45,606 nt of DNA from Opitutaceae bacterium. Its GTDB lineage: Bacteria; Verrucomicrobiota; Verrucomicrobiia; Opitutales; Opitutaceae. A model generated the notes under the pieces. It saw nothing but the letters and a program-made list of their open reading frames with translations. It searched no databases and was not told where the DNA came from. Position 1 is the first letter of the stretch, and each line of letters opens with the position of its first letter. The position numbers and the translations under genes were made by a program. Positions 506-39,488 of the stretch are shown one piece after another. The stretch is taken from positions 1 to 45,606 of the forward strand of contig JAEUGY010000011.1 in assembly GCA_016794625.1 (NCBI GenBank). Direction: 5' to 3'.

Positions 506-688
506 GAATGGGCGAATGTGCGAAGGGCGAAGCCAGCCACTGCGGGGCTGGAATGACGAATGACGAATTCCGAATGACGAATGGGGCCTGCCCCGGAAGG
601 GCGGGAGGTGCGAAGGTCGAAGAGTGAAGGGCGAAGCCAGCCCTGCGGGGCTGGAATGACGAATGACGAATTCCGAATGTCGAATGGG
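506..688 (+). repeat. Array of GAAnnnn heptad blocks with abutting hairpins
   Basis: Three regular blocks of five 7-bp units lie at 551-585 (mostly GAATGAC), 605-639 (GAAGGTC/GAAGAGT type) and 654-688 (GAATGAC type). A looser run at 506-535 has unit spacing 8, 8 and 7. Each block starts on the last base of a hairpin: 533-551 (6-bp stem CCAGCC/GGCTGG), 587-606 (CCTGCCC/GGGCGGG, ending within the first unit) and 637-654 (CCAGCCCTGCGGGGCTGG). No reading frame here is credible. The remainder of 417-998, apart from the REP doublet at 748-884, shows nothing I can name. Confidence 0.85.
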
Positions 689-25788: not shown

Positions 25789-25841
25789 CCAGCCCCTGCG
25801 GGGCTGGAATGACGAATTCCTAATGACGAATGACGAATGAC
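25789..25841 (+). repeat. Hairpin plus GAAnnnn heptad block
   Basis: A hairpin with an 8-bp stem (CCAGCCCC/GGGGCTGG, 3-base loop) spans 25789-25807. Its last base begins five 7-bp units at 25807-25841: four GAAnnnn units of the GAATGAC type and one TAATGAC. It is the same arrangement as at 637-688. Confidence 0.85.
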
Positions 25842-30396: not shown

Positions 30397-30444
30397 CGCC
30401 GGCAAAGACAGGGGAGAGCCGCTGGCGCGCAACTCCAAAGCATG

Positions 30445-30688
30445 CCGCCCCCAGCCGTGGCGAGCGGCTGGGGGCGGAATGACGAAGGTCGAATGACGAA
30501 TGACGAATGGGGCCGGGCCCGTCGGGGCGGGAAGCTCGAAGGGCGAAGAGTGAAGTTCGAAATCAGTGTCCGATTGTAGGGCTCGCCCTCGCGGCCATGC
30601 CTGGCTTTTTTCACGCTTCACTCTTCGACCTTCCCAATTCACCGCCCTGCGGTGACGGCGTGCCCGCAAGGGGCAGCCCTACAATCGG
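30445..30688. repeat. Composite of heptad blocks, hairpins and a 14-bp inverted repeat
   Basis: The space between the MBL hydrolase and leuB holds, in order: a 13-bp-stem hairpin (30445-30477); a five-unit GAAnnnn block (30477-30511); a second hairpin-like spacer; a second block of five (30531-30565); a third block in the opposite sense (30609-30643, TTC units); and a CACCGC/GCGGTG hairpin (30640-30654). An exact 14-bp inverted repeat (CCGATTGTAGGGCT at 30570-30583, AGCCCTACAATCGG at 30675-30688) encloses the third block. The rest of 30397-30857 is AT-richer near 30721-30760 and may hold the leuB promoter, but no clear boxes are seen. Confidence 0.85.
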
Positions 30689-30857
30689 AGGTTGGCCTGC
30701 GCTGATCGTGGGGGCGCTGGGATCGATTGATATAAAAGTTATTGAATTGCGATTGCTGCGAGGGACCAAGCCGCGCGTGGCTCTAAACTGCACCCGCTTG
30801 TGTCCATGGCGGCTGTCGTGAATCCCCACTTGCCACTGAGGCCCGCGGTTTGCCACG

Positions 30858-31973
30858 ATGGCCGACTTTATGTCGACGCTTACGTTCGCCGTTCTTCCAG
30901 GAGACTACATCGGGCCCGAGGTGATGACCGAGGCGCTGCGCGTGCTGGCCCATGTGGCCCGCAAGGAAAACATCACCCTCTCCTACGAGATCGCCGATGT
31001 CGGCGGGGCTGGCATCGACAACCATGGCAAGGCGCTGCCGGACTCGACCTTGGAGCTCTGCCGCAAGAGCGATGCGATTTTATTCGGCTCCGTCGGTGGT
31101 CCGAAATGGGAAAAGCTGCCGCCGAAGGAACAGCCCGAGCGCGCCGCGCTGCTGCCGCTGCGCAAGGCCTTCAGTCTCTTTGCCAACATCCGCCCCGGTC
31201 TGCTCTACAAGGACCTGGTCGACGCCTCGCCGCTCAAGGCGGAACGCATTCCGAACGGCATCGACATCGTCTGCATCCGCGAGCTGACGGGCGGCATTTA
31301 TTTCGGCCAGCCGAAGACCACGATCACGCTGCCCAATGGCGAGGAGCAGGCGGTCGATACGATGATCTACAAGACGTCGGAGATCGAACGCATCGCCGAG
31401 GTCGCCGCGGTCACCGCGCGGGCCCGCGGCAAGCGCGTGTGTTCGGTCGACAAGGCCAATGTGCTGGAAACGTCGGTGCTCTGGCGCAAGACCGTGATCG
31501 CGTATTTCGCGAAGCATCACCCGGACCTCGCGCTCACCCATATGTACGTCGACAACGCGGCGATGCAGCTCGCGCGCGATCCCAACCAGTTCGACGTGCT
31601 CTTCACGGAGAACATGTTCGGCGACATCCTCTCTGACGAGATGGCGGTCATCTGCGGCTCGCTCGGCATGATGAGCAGTGCCTCGCTCGGTGTCGGCTCG
31701 AACCGTCACGGCAAACCCTTCGGTCTGTACGAACCGGCCGGCGGCACCGCGCCCGACATCGCGGGCAAGGGCATCGCCAATCCCTGCGCGCAGATCCTCT
31801 CGGCCGCGCTCATGCTGCGCTACAGCTTCGGCCTCGACGCCCTCGCGACCCGGATCGAGGCGGCGGTCCGCAAGACCGTCGCAGTCGACGGCGTGCGCAC
31901 CGGCGACATCGCCTTCGGCCGCCCCACCGTCGGCACCATCGCCATGGCCGACGCGATCATCCGCAATCTTTGA
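30858..31973 (+). CDS. leuB: 3-isopropylmalate dehydrogenase LeuB
   Basis: The 371-residue protein is a decarboxylating dehydrogenase of leucine synthesis. [108 protein letters not shown] and [32 protein letters not shown] are all standard LeuB blocks. One residue is odd: the opening [10 protein letters not shown] has Tyr where LeuB proteins normally have Gly (LPGDGIGPEV). I start at ATG 30858; the ATG at 30870 ([12 protein letters not shown]) is equally possible. The gene has no leuCD neighbour. Its last codons form one arm of a 15-bp hairpin that leads into a heptad block. Confidence 0.96.
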
Positions 31974-32020
31974 TTGCGGATGATCGAAGTGCGAAGTTCG
32001 AAGAGTGAAGAGTGAAGTTA
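31954..32020 (+). repeat. Hairpin formed with leuB codons plus heptad block
   Basis: CGATCATCCGCAATC (31954-31968, in leuB) pairs perfectly with GATTGCGGATGATCG (31972-31986) across the TTT loop; the leuB TGA spans 31971-31973. Base 31986 starts five GAAnnnn units (31986-32020). The last part of this block also encodes the start (GTG 32005) and first residues of the four-helix-bundle protein. Confidence 0.85.
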
Positions 32021-32376
32021 AAGCAACCAAGGCGCCGGACATCCGTGAGCGGACCTTTCGGTTTTCGGTGGAAGTCGTGAACCTTTGTCGCCAGCATGAG
32101 ACTACAGCGTCGGCCAGTCGCGTTGTTTCGAACCAGCTTTTGCGTGCGGCGACCTCGATTGGAGCCAATGTAGAGGAAGCTTACGGTAGCCAAAGTCGCG
32201 CCGACTTTGCCGCGAAAATGTCCATAGCCTGCAAGGAGGCGCGGGAGACCCGCTATTGGATCCGACTTGCCGAAGCGTGCGGGCTTTTCCGTCCTACCTC
32301 ACTGGGCGACTTCGACAGAGAGGCCAACGAGATTGTCGCCATCCTCACCACCATCGCCAAAAAGTGCCGCACTTAG
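32005..32376 (+). CDS. Four-helix-bundle protein (S23/IVS/Avd-like family)
   Basis: The 123-residue protein matches the small four-helix-bundle family first known from intervening sequences in 23S rRNA genes, which also contains the Avd accessory protein of diversity-generating retroelements. Diagnostic features are FRFSVEVVNLCRQH, LLRAATSIGANVEEAYGSQSRADFAAKMSIACKEARETRYWIRLAEACGLF and a final helix. The start is a GTG (32005) that lies inside the heptad repeat, so the first five residues (MKSEV) are repeat-encoded. No ATG exists before the middle of the protein. The coding sequence is less GC-rich than leuB and alaS. Its function is unknown, but basic Avd-like proteins bind nucleic acid. 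No reverse transcriptase is nearby. It is bracketed by inverted heptad blocks. Confidence 0.85.
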   Translation: MKSEVKATKAPDIRERTFRFSVEVVNLCRQHETTASASRVVSNQLLRAATSIGANVEEAYGSQSRADFAAKMSIACKEARETRYWIRLAEACGLFRPTSLGDFDREANEIVAILTTIAKKCRT

Positions 32377-32390
32377 AAATAGGTCATAAA

Positions 32391-32487
32391 CTTCACTCTT
32401 TACTCTTCGCCCTTCACTCTTCTCCGCCGATCCTCAGGTCTGCCGTCCGAAATTTCACTCTTCACTCTTCGCCCTTCACTCTTCCTT
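32391..32487 (-). repeat. Two heptad blocks before alaS
   Basis: Two runs of five 7-bp units in the TTC sense occupy 32391-32425 and 32453-32487, separated by 27 bp. The second ends four bases before the alaS ATG. The first is inverted relative to the block at 31986-32020, so the four-helix gene has inverted blocks at both ends. Unlike most other blocks, no clear hairpin abuts either run. Confidence 0.85.
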
Positions 32488-32491
32488 TCCC

Positions 32492-35206
32492 ATGACCTCC
32501 GCTCAGATCCGTCAGTCGTTCCTCGATTTTTTTGCGAGCCAGGGGCACACGATTGTGCCCTCGTCCTCGCTGCTGCCGGACTCGCCCGGACTGCTCTTCA
32601 CCAACGCCGGCATGAATCAGTTCGTGCCGATCTTCCTCGGTGACCGGGCGGCGGACGTGTCGAAGTGGGCCGGCGTGCGTCCGAGCAAGGATACCCGGGC
32701 GGCGGATACGCAGAAGTGCATCCGCGCCGGTGGCAAACACAACGATCTGGAGGATGTCGGCTTCGACACCTACCACCACACGCTCTTCGAAATGCTGGGC
32801 AATTGGTCCTTCGGCGACTACTTCAAGAAGGAGTCGCTCACCTGGGGCTGGCACCTGCTGACCAAGGTCTGGGGCATGCCGGCCAAGCGCCTTTTCGCCA
32901 CGGTCTACGCGCCGAAGCCGGGCGACCCGTCGGAGTTTGACCACGAGGCGGCCGCGATCTGGACGGAGCTCTTCAAGGCCGAGGGTCTCGATCCCGCGAT
33001 CCACATCGTCCATGGCAATCGCAAGGACAACTTCTGGATGATGGGCGACACCGGCCCGTGCGGTCCGTGTTCCGAGATCCACTTCAACCTGCTCGCGAAT
33101 GACGACGAGGTCGAGGGCCGCAAACTCGTCAATTCCTCCAGCCCGCGCTGCATCGAGATTTGGAACCACGTGTTCATCCAGTTCAACGCCAACGCCGACG
33201 GCACCTTCTCACCGCTCGCGGCGAAGCACGTCGACACCGGCATGGGCTTTGAGCGCGTCGCCGGCATTCACGCCACGACCAAGGGCTTCACCACCTTCGG
33301 CGCGGAGCCGTCGAACTACGAGGCGGACGTCTTTGCGCCCCTGTTCGCCAAGGTCACCGCGCTGTCCGGCAAGACCTACGCGCGCACGGTTCCGACCAAA
33401 CGCGAGGGGCTGACCGAGCAGGAGCACATCGACATCGCCTTCCGCGTGCTCGCCGATCACGCCCGCACCATCAGTTGCGCCATCGCCGACGGCATCCTGC
33501 CGGGCAACGAAGGGCGCAACTACGTCATCCGCCGCATCCTCCGTCGCGGCATCCTCTATGGCACCAAGCTCGGCCTCAAGGCGGGCTTCTTCGAGCAACT
33601 CGTGGCGCCGGTGGTGGAGAGCCTCGGGCCGGTCTTTCCGGAGCTGGTCGCGCAGCAGGACATCGTGCGCCGCGTCATCCGCAGCGAGGAGGAGAGCTTC
33701 GGGCGCACCCTCGACCGCGGACTTAGCCTGTTCCAGGCCGCAGTCGCCGGCGGGGCCAGCCACGGGGCCGGCACCACGGTGGAGGGCGCCACCGCGTTCG
33801 AGCTGTACGACACGTATGGCTTCCCGCTCGACATGACCCAGCTTCTGGCGGCCGAGCGCGGACTGACCGTCGACACTGCCTCGTTCGAAGCGCTGATGGA
33901 AAAACAGCGCGAGCGCGGTCGCGCGGCGCAGAAAAAGGAAATCGTCGTCGCCGCCACCGAGGGCGAGGCGACGAACCTCAAGCCCACCGAGTTTCTCGGT
34001 TACACCGAGACGTCGGCGTCGGCGACTCTGCAGGAGATTGTGCGCGCGGACGCTGACACGTTCCTGATCTTCGACCGCACACCCTTCTACGCGGAAATGG
34101 GTGGCCAGGCGGGCGACTGCGGTACGGTCCGGGTGGCCGGCACGGAGCTGCACATCGCGGATACCGTGAAGGACAAGTCCGGACGCCACTTGCACAAGAC
34201 GGCCACGGATGCCTCCACCTTGACCGTTGGCACGCGCGCCGAGCTGTCGGTCGACCTCGGCCGTCGCCGCGCCATTTCGCGTCATCACTCCGCCGCGCAC
34301 CTCATCCATTGGGCGCTGCGCAAGGTGCTGGGCAACCACGTGCGCCAGGCCGGCACCTCCAAGACGCCGGACCGCATGCGGTTCGACTTCTCGCACTTCG
34401 AGGCGATGACACCCGAGCAGCTGCGCGAGGTGGAGCGCCTGGTGAACGAGAAGGTCATCGACAACGCCCGCGTGGAAACCTACGAGACCGATTTCGACAA
34501 GAAGCCCGAGGGCACGCTCGCGTTCTTCGGTGAGAAGTACGGCAAGGTGGTCCGGGTGGTCGACATCGGTGGATACAGCCGCGAGCTCTGCGGCGGCACC
34601 CACGTGGCGACCGCGGGCGAGATCGGTTTCATCAAGATCGTGGCGGAAATGGCGATCGCGGCCGGCACCCGCCGCATCGAGGCGGTGGCGGGCCAGGCGG
34701 CCTTCGACCTGCTCACGCATCATGACCAGCAACTCCGGGCCGTCGGCGCCAAGCTCAACGCGGGTCCGACGGATGTCGTGGCCAAGCTCGACGCTCTGCT
34801 CGCGCACAAGGCGGAGTCCGACCGCAAGCTCCGGGTCTTCGAGCAGAAGGCGGCGGCGGGGCTGGCGGATGAACTCGTGACGAAATCGACCGAACGCGGC
34901 GGCCTGCGGTTCGTGTCCGCCGTGGTCACCGTCGACTCGCCCGAAGCCCTGCGCGCGCTCGGTTCCCAGGTCGTGTCCAAGCTCGGTGAGGGCGTGGTCC
35001 GCCTCGGCGCCGTGCTGGGTGACAAGGCCACGGTGGTGGCCTTCTGTTCCCCGGCCGCGATCAAGGCCGGGCACCAGGCGGGTAAACTCGTCGCGGCCCT
35101 CTGCGCCCAGATCGGTGGCAAAGGCGGCGGCAAACCCGATTTCGCGATGGGCGGCGGCAAGGAAACCGCCCGCCTCACCGAAGTCCTCGCCGAACCGGTG
35201 TTGTAA
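32492..35206 (+). CDS. alaS: Alanine--tRNA ligase
   Basis: The 904-residue protein has the full domain order. The class II catalytic core opens SAQIRQSFLDFFASQGHTIVPSSSLLP and FTNAGMNQFVPIFLG. The tRNA-recognition region follows. The editing domain has HHSAAHLIHWALRKVLGNHVRQAG and CGGTHVATAGEIGF (the zinc-binding His/His and Cys/His pairs). The C-Ala domain ends GGGKPDFAMGGGKETARLTEVL. It charges tRNA-Ala and removes mischarged Ser and Gly. Length is typical. The start codon is preceded directly by pyrimidine-rich heptad repeat, so the leader has no Shine-Dalgarno sequence. It is followed by a REP doublet. Confidence 0.97.
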   Translation: MTSAQIRQSFLDFFASQGHTIVPSSSLLPDSPGLLFTNAGMNQFVPIFLGDRAADVSKWAGVRPSKDTRAADTQKCIRAGGKHNDLEDVGFDTYHHTLFEMLGNWSFGDYFKKESLTWGWHLLTKVWGMPAKRLFATVYAPKPGDPSEFDHEAAAIWTELFKAEGLDPAIHIVHGNRKDNFWMMGDTGPCGPCSEIHFNLLANDDEVEGRKLVNSSSPRCIEIWNHVFIQFNANADGTFSPLAAKHVDTGMGFERVAGIHATTKGFTTFGAEPSNYEADVFAPLFAKVTALSGKTYARTVPTKREGLTEQEHIDIAFRVLADHARTISCAIADGILPGNEGRNYVIRRILRRGILYGTKLGLKAGFFEQLVAPVVESLGPVFPELVAQQDIVRRVIRSEEESFGRTLDRGLSLFQAAVAGGASHGAGTTVEGATAFELYDTYGFPLDMTQLLAAERGLTVDTASFEALMEKQRERGRAAQKKEIVVAATEGEATNLKPTEFLGYTETSASATLQEIVRADADTFLIFDRTPFYAEMGGQAGDCGTVRVAGTELHIADTVKDKSGRHLHKTATDASTLTVGTRAELSVDLGRRRAISRHHSAAHLIHWALRKVLGNHVRQAGTSKTPDRMRFDFSHFEAMTPEQLREVERLVNEKVIDNARVETYETDFDKKPEGTLAFFGEKYGKVVRVVDIGGYSRELCGGTHVATAGEIGFIKIVAEMAIAAGTRRIEAVAGQAAFDLLTHHDQQLRAVGAKLNAGPTDVVAKLDALLAHKAESDRKLRVFEQKAAAGLADELVTKSTERGGLRFVSAVVTVDSPEALRALGSQVVSKLGEGVVRLGAVLGDKATVVAFCSPAAIKAGHQAGKLVAALCAQIGGKGGGKPDFAMGGGKETARLTEVLAEPVL

Positions 35207-35226: not shown

Positions 35227-35331
35227 GGAGGGCGCCGCTCCGTCGGCGCCGGTTCAGCGTCGCAATTACCAAAACGGGCGGGCGCAGGTTTTCGAGGGGC
35301 GTTCCCCGGCGTCGACGGAGCGACGCCCTCC
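35227..35331. repeat. REP-type inverted doublet (family A)
   Basis: The left arm at 35227-35252 starts GGAGGGCGCCGCTC and the right arm at 35306-35331 ends GAGCGACGCCCTCC. This doublet follows alaS by 20 bp. Both arms can fold alone (for instance GGCGCC and GGCGTCGACGCC cores) or with each other. Confidence 0.8.
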
Positions 35332-35446
35332 ATCAGAGCCCTAGATCAATCAAAAAAGGCTTACGTTCGGTTTCTCACCTCAACGTTCGCGCCCCCGCCT
35401 GCGCTCCCTCCAACGGACACCTGCCTGTGATCGCGCTGTCGGTCCG

Positions 35447-35493
35447 TTTCACCTTTCACTCTTCGCCCTTCACTCTTCACCGCTCCTGCGGTG
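35447..35493 (-). repeat. Heptad block plus hairpin before alkC
   Basis: Five 7-bp units in the TTC sense (35447-35481) lead into the hairpin CACCGC-TCCT-GCGGTG (35478-35493). The hairpin's outer base is the C pairing with the G of the first GAA when read on the minus strand. It ends six bases before the start codon at 35500. Confidence 0.85.
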
Positions 35494-36715: not shown

Positions 36716-36821
36716 GAAGGGCGTCGCTCAGTCGACGCCGGGGGACGAACCCCGCAACCCTGCGTCCGTACGTTCTCGGTGAACGCAACGCGCAACCGGC
36801 GTCGACGGAGCGACGCCCTCC
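36716..36821. repeat. REP-type inverted doublet (family A), degenerate left arm
   Basis: The left arm at 36716-36741 (GAAGGGCGTCGCTCAGTCG) is diverged, and the right arm at 36796-36821 is identical to that at 35306-35331. A GGGCAGCATGCCCTGAGCCC stretch just left of it (36693-36712) is itself palindromic at its start. The rest of 36610-36986 holds nothing I can name. Confidence 0.75.
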
Positions 36822-36986
36822 ATCTATCCCACGCTCACCGAAGTGCTCTCTGCCGCGTTGTTTCAAAGTTAACGCATATGGGGCACCGCCCCCCTGGTCG
36901 CCCTCCCGCCCGCGGACGTTCGGAGAGAACGGCAAATGCCGGTTGAGCTCGGCGGGAATCGTGTCACGGTGAGGGGCTCTTCGACC

Positions 36987-39256: not shown

Positions 39257-39289
39257 GGCGGCGGCCTTTCCATGATGAGGATGCCTTCC

Positions 39290-39398
39290 GTTGGAGGTGG
39301 GGTCGCAGACCCCGCGAGGATGGCGTCGCGTGAAGAAATCGGACATCGGAGGCGGGCCCGATAGGTCCCGTCCCGGCCTCAACGAGGCCAGCTCCAAC
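39290..39398. repeat. Palindromic inverted doublet (family B)
   Basis: The left arm starts GTTGGAGGTGGGGTCGCAGA (39290), and the right arm is GGCCTCAACGAGGCC followed by AGCTCCAAC (39375-39398). It occupies most of the space between ispH and the channel gene, which argues that the channel starts after it. Confidence 0.65.
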
Positions 39399-39488
39399 AC
39401 GACCGCTACAAATTCCGCGCCCGCTTCTCCCGTTGGCGCCTCCTCGCCACCGGCTACGCAGGCAGGAAACGCGGTCGCGCCGCTTGAC

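Follow-up and report, generated by a model that had tools for sequence, protein, structure and literature searches.

The 23S rRNA IVS elements carry an S23/IVP protein and have complementary ends (PMC4990558). Other accounts describe how template switching can both create and maintain hairpins (PMC8794818), and report unexplained intergenic heptamer arrays from Xanthomonas and Nostoc, with the Xanthomonas pairs often convergent, that is, inverted (PMC4692102), as well as the TAACTGA repeats of Beggiatoaceae, which are likewise heptamer arrays without an explanation (PMC4679880). In the passages considered, neither array paper connects its arrays with IVP genes or with mirrored ends of genes, and the Beggiatoaceae text makes no mention of "IVP," "intervening," or "four helix"; nor did any title or abstract listed by our searches of an open-access library link IVP genes with heptads. 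In addition, DGR targets are described as needing a hairpin or cruciform near the end of the target gene (PMC3240598) and the Avd protein of DGRs as resembling PF05635 (PMC10053308).

Here, we consider a locus that touches on all of these systems. It lies in a stretch of 45,606 nucleotides from an Opitutaceae bacterium (GCA_016794625.1, contig JAEUGY010000011.1), which as a whole we call the window. The 3-isopropylmalate dehydrogenase gene leuB occupies 30858..31973 on the plus strand (assigned from the open reading frame list, a Pfam Iso_dh match at E=1.3e-128, and its relatives), with its TGA stop codon at 31971-31973. Its last 17 coding bases and the stop codon supply one arm and the loop of a hairpin. 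The host (coding) arm, CGATCATCCGCAATC, lies at 31954..31968 on the plus strand, the TTT loop at 31969..31971 ends in the first base of the stop codon, and an exact inverted copy of the arm follows at 31972..31986 (plus strand), beginning with the GA that ends the stop codon. Base 31986 doubles as the last base of this mirror and the first G of a left heptad array of five GAAnnnn units on the plus strand (31986..32020; GAAGTGC, GAAGTTC, GAAGAGT, GAAGAGT, GAAGTTA). What follows the hairpin is AAGTGCGAAG; because this contains no T run, the structure is not a canonical intrinsic terminator.

Next comes the gene for a four-helix-bundle protein, the IVP gene, at 32005..32376 on the plus strand (PF05635 E=3.7e-22; TIGR02436 E=6.1e-27). 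Its start codon is uncertain, the homologous part being 32041-32349, and its product scores above both family cut-offs (79 bits vs 33.8 for PF05635, and 94 bits vs 24 for TIGR02436). To its right are two arrays on the minus strand, inverted relative to the left one, at 32391..32422 and 32450..32484, the latter 7 bases before alaS (32492..35206, plus strand; Pfam tRNA-synt_2c E=3.6e-175). The terminal sequences are thus inverted, as in inverted-repeat IS and MITE elements. On sequence grounds, we read the leuB hairpin as the left-hand boundary of an IVP element that has heptad arrays at its ends and is inserted between leuB and alaS. An IVP gene set between housekeeping genes and flanked by 7-base repeat blocks is selfish-looking.

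The likenesses to described systems are specific, and so are the differences. With the 23S rRNA IVS the element shares the protein family, a small one-ORF layout, complementary ends, and an extended stem at the insertion point; unlike the IVS, which sits in 23S rRNA helices, it occupies a gap between protein-coding genes, has heptad arrays as its boundaries, and shows a stem that repeats the neighboring gene in inverted form, whereas in the IVS the two element ends pair. Its arrays resemble those of Xanthomonas, Nostoc, and Beggiatoaceae in being short, of period 7, and located between genes. As in template-switch (quasipalindrome) mutation, where inverted copying of a neighbor creates or corrects a hairpin and leaves compensatory double changes (PMC8794818), leuB presents an exact inverted copy of adjacent ancestral sequence across a short loop; unlike those mutations, the copying recurs here at one defined place, the outer edge of IVP-element arrays. 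DGR target sites (PMC3240598) offer a further parallel in a hairpin or cruciform near a gene end and in the use of Avd, a protein of a related family, but no reverse transcriptase was found here, and the hairpin is made of the gene itself. There were no PF00078 matches in this genome (G000), the assembly of which is about 95% complete. Similarly, the window protein has no DivGenRetAVD match at E 0.001 (three proteins scanned), and its paralogue L031 reaches 27.9 bits against a cut-off of 80.

The association of heptad arrays with IVP genes is general. Our order sample comprises 95 IVP loci from the window's genome and its relatives (6 and 29 from IVP matches, and 60 taken by place down the match list with some skipped; L341 and L343 entered it for lying at glcD). 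Counting as an array any stretch with at least 16 of 21 period-7 matches, we found arrays to the left of the IVP gene at 47/95 loci, to the right at 54/95, and on at least one side at 62/95. Control sequence 440-620 bp upstream had an array at 0/92 loci, and other periods at the IVP flanks give at most 5, harmonic 14 excepted. A bacteria-wide sample, the best 80 of 584 relatives of one IVP subgroup (from Chloroflexi, Cyanobacteria, Acidobacteria, Bacteroidetes, Planctomycetota, Nitrospirota, and others), has arrays on the left at 49/80 loci, on the right at 42/80, and on at least one side at 59/80 (controls 4/73), often with a TCAGCNN-like motif; L407, which contains a run of N, is left out of the bacteria-wide counts (49 left arrays, 93 ends). 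In 63 of the 71 elements that have both arrays, the left one matches the right one better in inverted than in direct orientation.

Motif similarity tracks the identity of the IVP proteins, with a Mantel rho of 0.46 over 124 array-bearing loci and of 0.25 within the 63 loci of the window's order; 0/300 permutations were as high in either set. If the protein recognizes the array, such covariation is expected, but joint inheritance of array and gene would produce it as well; a DNA-protein specificity is in any case directly testable. Among the arrays of this genome that have at least four units, those with five are the most frequent (82/139), and the solved relatives 2gsc and 2rld each list five chains, although a link between five-unit arrays and a five-chain protein is only suggestive. 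The heptamer arrays of Xanthomonas, Nostoc, and Beggiatoaceae may often be the inverted ends of elements with a four-helix-bundle gene. At L036 in this genome (G000:C48:181475), where the IVP match is weak and falls short of the family cut-off, the flanks carry inverted repeats of 9 bases (GATGGACGG-like) in place of heptads. In the gap between sucB and lpdA (L225, L236, L244, L246, L253), GTAGNNN, GGAGGCC, TTGAAAG, and other arrays occur by genus, and the gap after sucB is a recurrent insertion spot.

The mirror is a different matter from the array, and so far it is a trait of the window's order. We read 119 ends of four genes, leuB, glcD, a circularly permuted ATP-grasp gene (CP-ATP-grasp), and sucB, one of 120 having been dropped at a contig end; the lower glcD rows are paralogues at 39-49% identity. 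A stem of at least 8 bp with a loop of 3-8, touching the gene end, is present at 6/18 ends with a period-7 array and at 0/101 without, and stems of 6-7 bp add two ends with an array and one without (L050). It is important to note that four of the six positives (L037, L165, L195, L225) were query loci picked for their hairpin; the other two, L051 and L196, arrived via searches, and L196 (G001) has the same insertion as L195. For leuB, where the empty sites compared come from same-genus or more distant relatives, no stem of at least 8 bp occurs at the array-free ends of 27 relatives, and L050 has one of 6 bp (loop 6). In L051, from G028, the leuB end is mirrored at the same TTT loop and abuts TAGnnnn heptads, so that leuB is mirrored in two genera, G000 and G028, with the same loop and different heptads. 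The sucB mirror in G028 and the leuB mirrors in the two genera share the center TC-NNN-GA, in which GA closes the TGA stop codon.

At glcD, the array-free ends of G004 and G006 read TGAGCCTTCC from the stop, without a mirror, and the host arm of G000 reads TGAGGCTTCC. Because these array-free ends resemble the G000 host arm and have no mirror, the host arm is ancestral and the other arm derived. The corresponding sequence in G003 is TGAGCCCTTC.

Two further observations concern leuB. The G001 contig (L038, end of G001:C82) stops inside leuB a few bases into the would-be hairpin arm, as if a similar repeat structure had broken the assembly. Directly downstream of leuB in L048, L050, L057, and L063 are AACCACAGAG-like repeats, and in L048 and L050 these are followed by a frame that looks like a GxxExxY family member; they are perhaps a parallel class of repeat-bounded small-gene element.

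The 95 loci of the order were collected by IVP match and not by hairpin, and they provide 101 array ends. Counting stems of at least 7 bp with a loop of 3-6 and an outer base from -6 to +3 of the array start, we found a hairpin at 12/101 ends vs 19/3401 positions in the distal flanks of the same loci (p=1.5e-11); without G000 and G001 the figures are 10/88 vs 13/2102 (p=4.9e-9). Within 14 bases of the array the count is 13/101 vs 52/3401, made up of 9/46 left ends and 4/55 right ends, which leaves 88/101 ends of the order with no such hairpin. Stems with loops of 0-2 are present at 5/101 ends of the order vs 29/2476 control positions, and four of these five places coincide with stems with loops of 3 to 6. 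Outside the order, a stem of at least 7 bp with any loop of 0-6 occurs at 0/93 array ends; arrays alone therefore do not suffice.

The genes adjoining the hairpins, named from matches of partial proteins, include leuB, glcD, CP-ATP-grasp, aspartate kinase, atpA, cysD, an ABC substrate-binding gene, and gyrB at their ends, and a gmhB-like phosphatase gene and an EpsI-like gene at their starts. The arms extend into leuB, glcD, CP-ATP-grasp, aspartate kinase, atpA, the ABC substrate-binding gene, and an unnamed gene (L272), as well as into the gmhB-like and EpsI-like gene starts, and the host arm is therefore fixed at those sites. The cysD stem (L265) is wholly after the stop, and in L333 the copied arm is ambiguous. 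At the gyrB end in L296, both arms are natural coding sequence (NVQFLDV), and L266 and L277 have near-identical sequence at the same junction; on this comparison, the gyrB hairpin probably predates its array. An IVP element follows the gyrB stop codon in these three genera, right behind the NVQFLDV coding sequence. The two gmhB-like cases, L298 and L307, probably go back to a single ancestral event; in L307 the palindrome is perfect and has no loop. L292 has a gene-end mirror and then a second flush stem of 8 bp, only the second falling within -6 to +3; its nested mirrors between gene end and array read TCGCGCCG-TAGG-CGGCGCGA and then GGCGGCGC-GAA-GCGCCGCC, flush with the array. The mirror at L341, the G001 glcD locus, contains one mismatch and one G-T pair, and the locus was scored negative.

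Orthologous insertions, defined as lying at the same gene with IVP proteins that are mutual nearest among the sampled array-bearing ones (65-71% identical), bear on the order of events. At glcD the mirror is present in L034 and L341 and absent from L343; in a second set it is present in L272 and absent from L308. The third copy of that set, L275, has no gene-end mirror and instead a different 15-base palindrome (7 bp, one-base center) 4 bases from the array, because of which only L343 and L308 are clean negatives. Either the insertion preceded the mirror, or the copies without a mirror have lost it. Changes in the two arms are also concerted: at gmhB, three of the four pairs that differ between L298 and L307 are altered on both sides (19 compared), and at glcD this is true of one of the three that differ between G000 and G001 (18 compared). 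Both recurrent copying and selection on the hairpin would keep the arms paired. The mirrored arm of L298 and L307 falls within the open frame, ahead of the conserved domain, where it would encode different residues in the two genomes. The arrays of L034 (at the start of a glcF-like frame), L298, and L307 (at the gmhB-like start) are in open N-terminal frame of housekeeping genes; read as frames, such arrays, and at gmhB the mirrored arm as well, perhaps add residues to these genes.

Flush hairpins are also common elsewhere in this genome. We define a block as at least four GAA heptads and a flush stem as an exact stem of at least 6 bp with a loop of 3-8 and the block's first G as its outer base. 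The blocks come from part of the genome, namely the GAAG places listed and part of the GAAT ones, with 100 of 170 five-unit places listed. A flush stem is present in 82/139 blocks in these stretches vs 2/1261 non-array GAA sites in the window, a statistic that rests on our own control sites; the count is 78 if only the longest stem per block is counted. By array type, flush stems are found in 61/83 GAAG, 21/26 GAAT, 0/28 GAAC, and 0/2 GAAA blocks. The figure of 82/139 is inflated by copy number because the 82 stems are not independent: the distinct arms number 19, and 69 of the stems share six of these. The recurrent stems, CACCGC, CCAGCCC(C), CCCGCCC, and others, sit in varied flanks, and most of the other flush hairpins here look as if they belong to a small number of repeated modules that are mobile and carry the hairpin along. 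The gene-derived leuB stem was found once among the 139 blocks.

Within the window, a hairpin with a recurrent CCAGCC stem joins a GAAT array at 533..585 (plus strand), one with a CCAGCCC stem does so at 637..688 (plus), a hairpin with an interrupted GAAT array lies at 25789..25841 (plus), a 13-bp hairpin with a GAAT-type array at 30445..30511 (plus), and CACCGC-type hairpins with GAAG-type arrays at 30606..30655 and 35444..35493 (both minus). The preliminary description of this DNA held that at each of these places, as at leuB, the outer base of the hairpin is the first base of a GAA heptad. That holds at 551, 654, 30477, and 35478 (minus strand), with flush exact stems of 6, 7, 13, and 6 bp; it also holds at 25789-25807, with an 8-bp stem read from the sequence, which our strict scan missed because its array is interrupted. 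At 30640 (minus strand) it is off by one, the 7-bp stem being one base longer and offset by +1, a one-base overlap. These stems are real, but they belong mostly to recurrent module families and are not fresh copies of an adjacent gene. The converse expectation, that most blocks would lack an abutting hairpin if the idea were wrong, was not borne out, given the 82/139 that have one. In the relative G001, the spot syntenic to window 30441-30819 measures about 80 bases and contains no array and no such hairpin.

The reading that we favor, and hold tentatively, is that the array came first and that snap-back template switching at its outer edge then copied the neighboring gene. The observations that it joins are the succession of array, IVP gene, and inverted arrays, the exact leuB mirror, its absence from array-free relatives, and its recurrence elsewhere. 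DNA synthesis leaving the gene would stall where it meets the array's outer edge, and IVP protein bound to the array, if it has any role in this, may be the block. The new 3' end would fold back across a short loop and prime on a small number of complementary bases, for example the TC...GA at the leuB stop, where the GA at 31972-31973 is a possible priming seed on the TC at 31967-31968; a TC-NNN-GA center would amount to a two-base seed and a three-base loop. The folded-back end would then copy some 7-22 bases of adjacent sequence before synthesis rejoined the template at the array, for which a one-base match to the first heptad base could be enough. A return point at the array would explain why the outer base of the stem is the first heptad base. 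The polymerase step is one that we infer, no intermediate or polymerase having been seen. Against this reading, the loop-free palindrome of L307 is not predicted by fold-back with a loop, the 69 recurrent-arm flush hairpins are not accounted for by copying of a neighboring gene, and selection on the hairpin would account for the concerted arm changes just as well.

The preliminary description had proposed that adjacent sequence is copied back on itself and heptads are then added. Its placement of the leuB mirror, with a 3-base loop and an end on the first base of a 5 x 7 bp GAAnnnn block, is exact by coordinates, and copying back is supported: the gene arm is ancestral, array-free relatives have no mirror (0/101 at 8 bp or more, including the 0/27 leuB ends, where a hairpin in block-free relatives would have spoken against it), and mirrors occur in other genera next to other motifs. 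The addition of heptads is not. The arrays are the inverted ends of IVP elements and usually have no hairpin (88/101 ends in the order, 93/93 outside it, and L343 and L308), so that mirrorless arrays are the rule and snap-back followed by heptad addition is disfavored as the order of events.

Several other explanations must be weighed against array-first copying. The mirror could have been made during insertion, with a broken target end snapping back, copying itself, and jumping into the heptad end of the incoming element. Flush junctions, empty sites without a mirror, and the leuB end mirrored twice at the same loop beside different heptads would all fit, but most array ends have no mirror (88/101 within 14 bases in the order, 93/93 elsewhere), orthologous insertions differ in having one (L034 and L341 vs L343; L272 vs L308), and the compensatory arm changes require a later process as well, so we consider this rather unlikely. 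Less probable again is a hairpin kept as a functional site, either a recognition structure for an Avd-like IVP protein or a stabilizer of the mRNA 3' end. The arms do co-vary, DGR targets need such a structure (PMC3240598), and IVP is a distant relative of Avd (PMC10053308), the paralogue L031 matching DivGenRetAVD at E=2.2e-6, far below the cut-off. Only a minority of ends have the hairpin, however, at gene starts as well as gene ends; its stem varies in sequence and length; the leuB copy, with no T run, is not a canonical intrinsic terminator; and no RT domain (PF00078) was found in this genome or in the IVP-rich G010, G012, G017, G032, and G043.

That the element inserts beside pre-existing hairpins, which would then be its target, strikes us as very improbable. 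The gyrB case would fit, since both arms in L296 are coding and the junction is near-identical in L266 and L277, but the array-free ends of leuB, glcD, CP-ATP-grasp, and sucB include no stem of at least 8 bp (0/101) and one of 6 bp (L050). At leuB, this reading is disfavored because array-free relatives have no hairpin; only gyrB fits. We give hardly any credence, as an explanation of the gene-derived mirrors, to a single mobile module of hairpin and array in which the stem is part of the module. It is likely for most blocks in this genome, given the six arms behind 69/82 flush hairpins, the regular units about 144 bp apart on contig C27, and the absence of both parts from G001 at window 30441-30819, but stems that are the reverse complement of the adjoining gene (leuB, glcD, atpA, and others) do not fit it.

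We also weighed some specific routes. A canonical intrinsic terminator does not fit at leuB, where there is no T run, and mirrors occur at gene starts too. V(D)J-like opening of sealed ends gives loop-free palindromes; it does not apply to leuB, with its loop of 3, and is possible at L307, which is a true loop-free palindrome. A route through reverse transcriptase is unlikely, as PF00078 matches nothing in this genome, although at least one match occurs in each of G035, G011, G015, and G024, which are likewise IVP-rich. For a RAYT/Y1 route, in which a dedicated Y1 transposase mobilizes a palindrome, Y1_Tnp is present in 43/57 genomes and in neither of the IVP-bearing G025 and G031.

Under array-first copying, the order's mirrors would be natural, repeated, and polarised cases in which inverted copying takes place at a defined position in the DNA and the coding sequence fixes which arm was the source. 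The leuB mirror suggests that DNA copying of this kind recurs, and can be tested, at the edge of a type of bacterial element that has received little study. A wider joint reading, which we regard as doubtful, is that IVP elements with heptad boundaries form a class of small mobile elements found across bacteria, in which the element's own pentameric four-helix-bundle protein reads the arrays at about one heptad per subunit, and that in the window's order this complex drives inverted copying of the neighbor, rewriting gene ends and the gmhB-like N-terminal frame from the mirror.

The window contains other repeats around these modules. At 30560-30690, a CACCGC hairpin and its GAAG array sit between the two members of an inverted pair, each about 30 bp long (GATTGTAGGGC...); similar ends precede many such modules in the stretches surveyed, some about 144 bp apart on contig C27. 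Finally, the intergenic repeats at 35227-35340, 36718-36893, and 39287-39399 each have about twenty or more matches listed in G001, at roughly 75-90% identity, and copies of the first two overlap on opposite strands.
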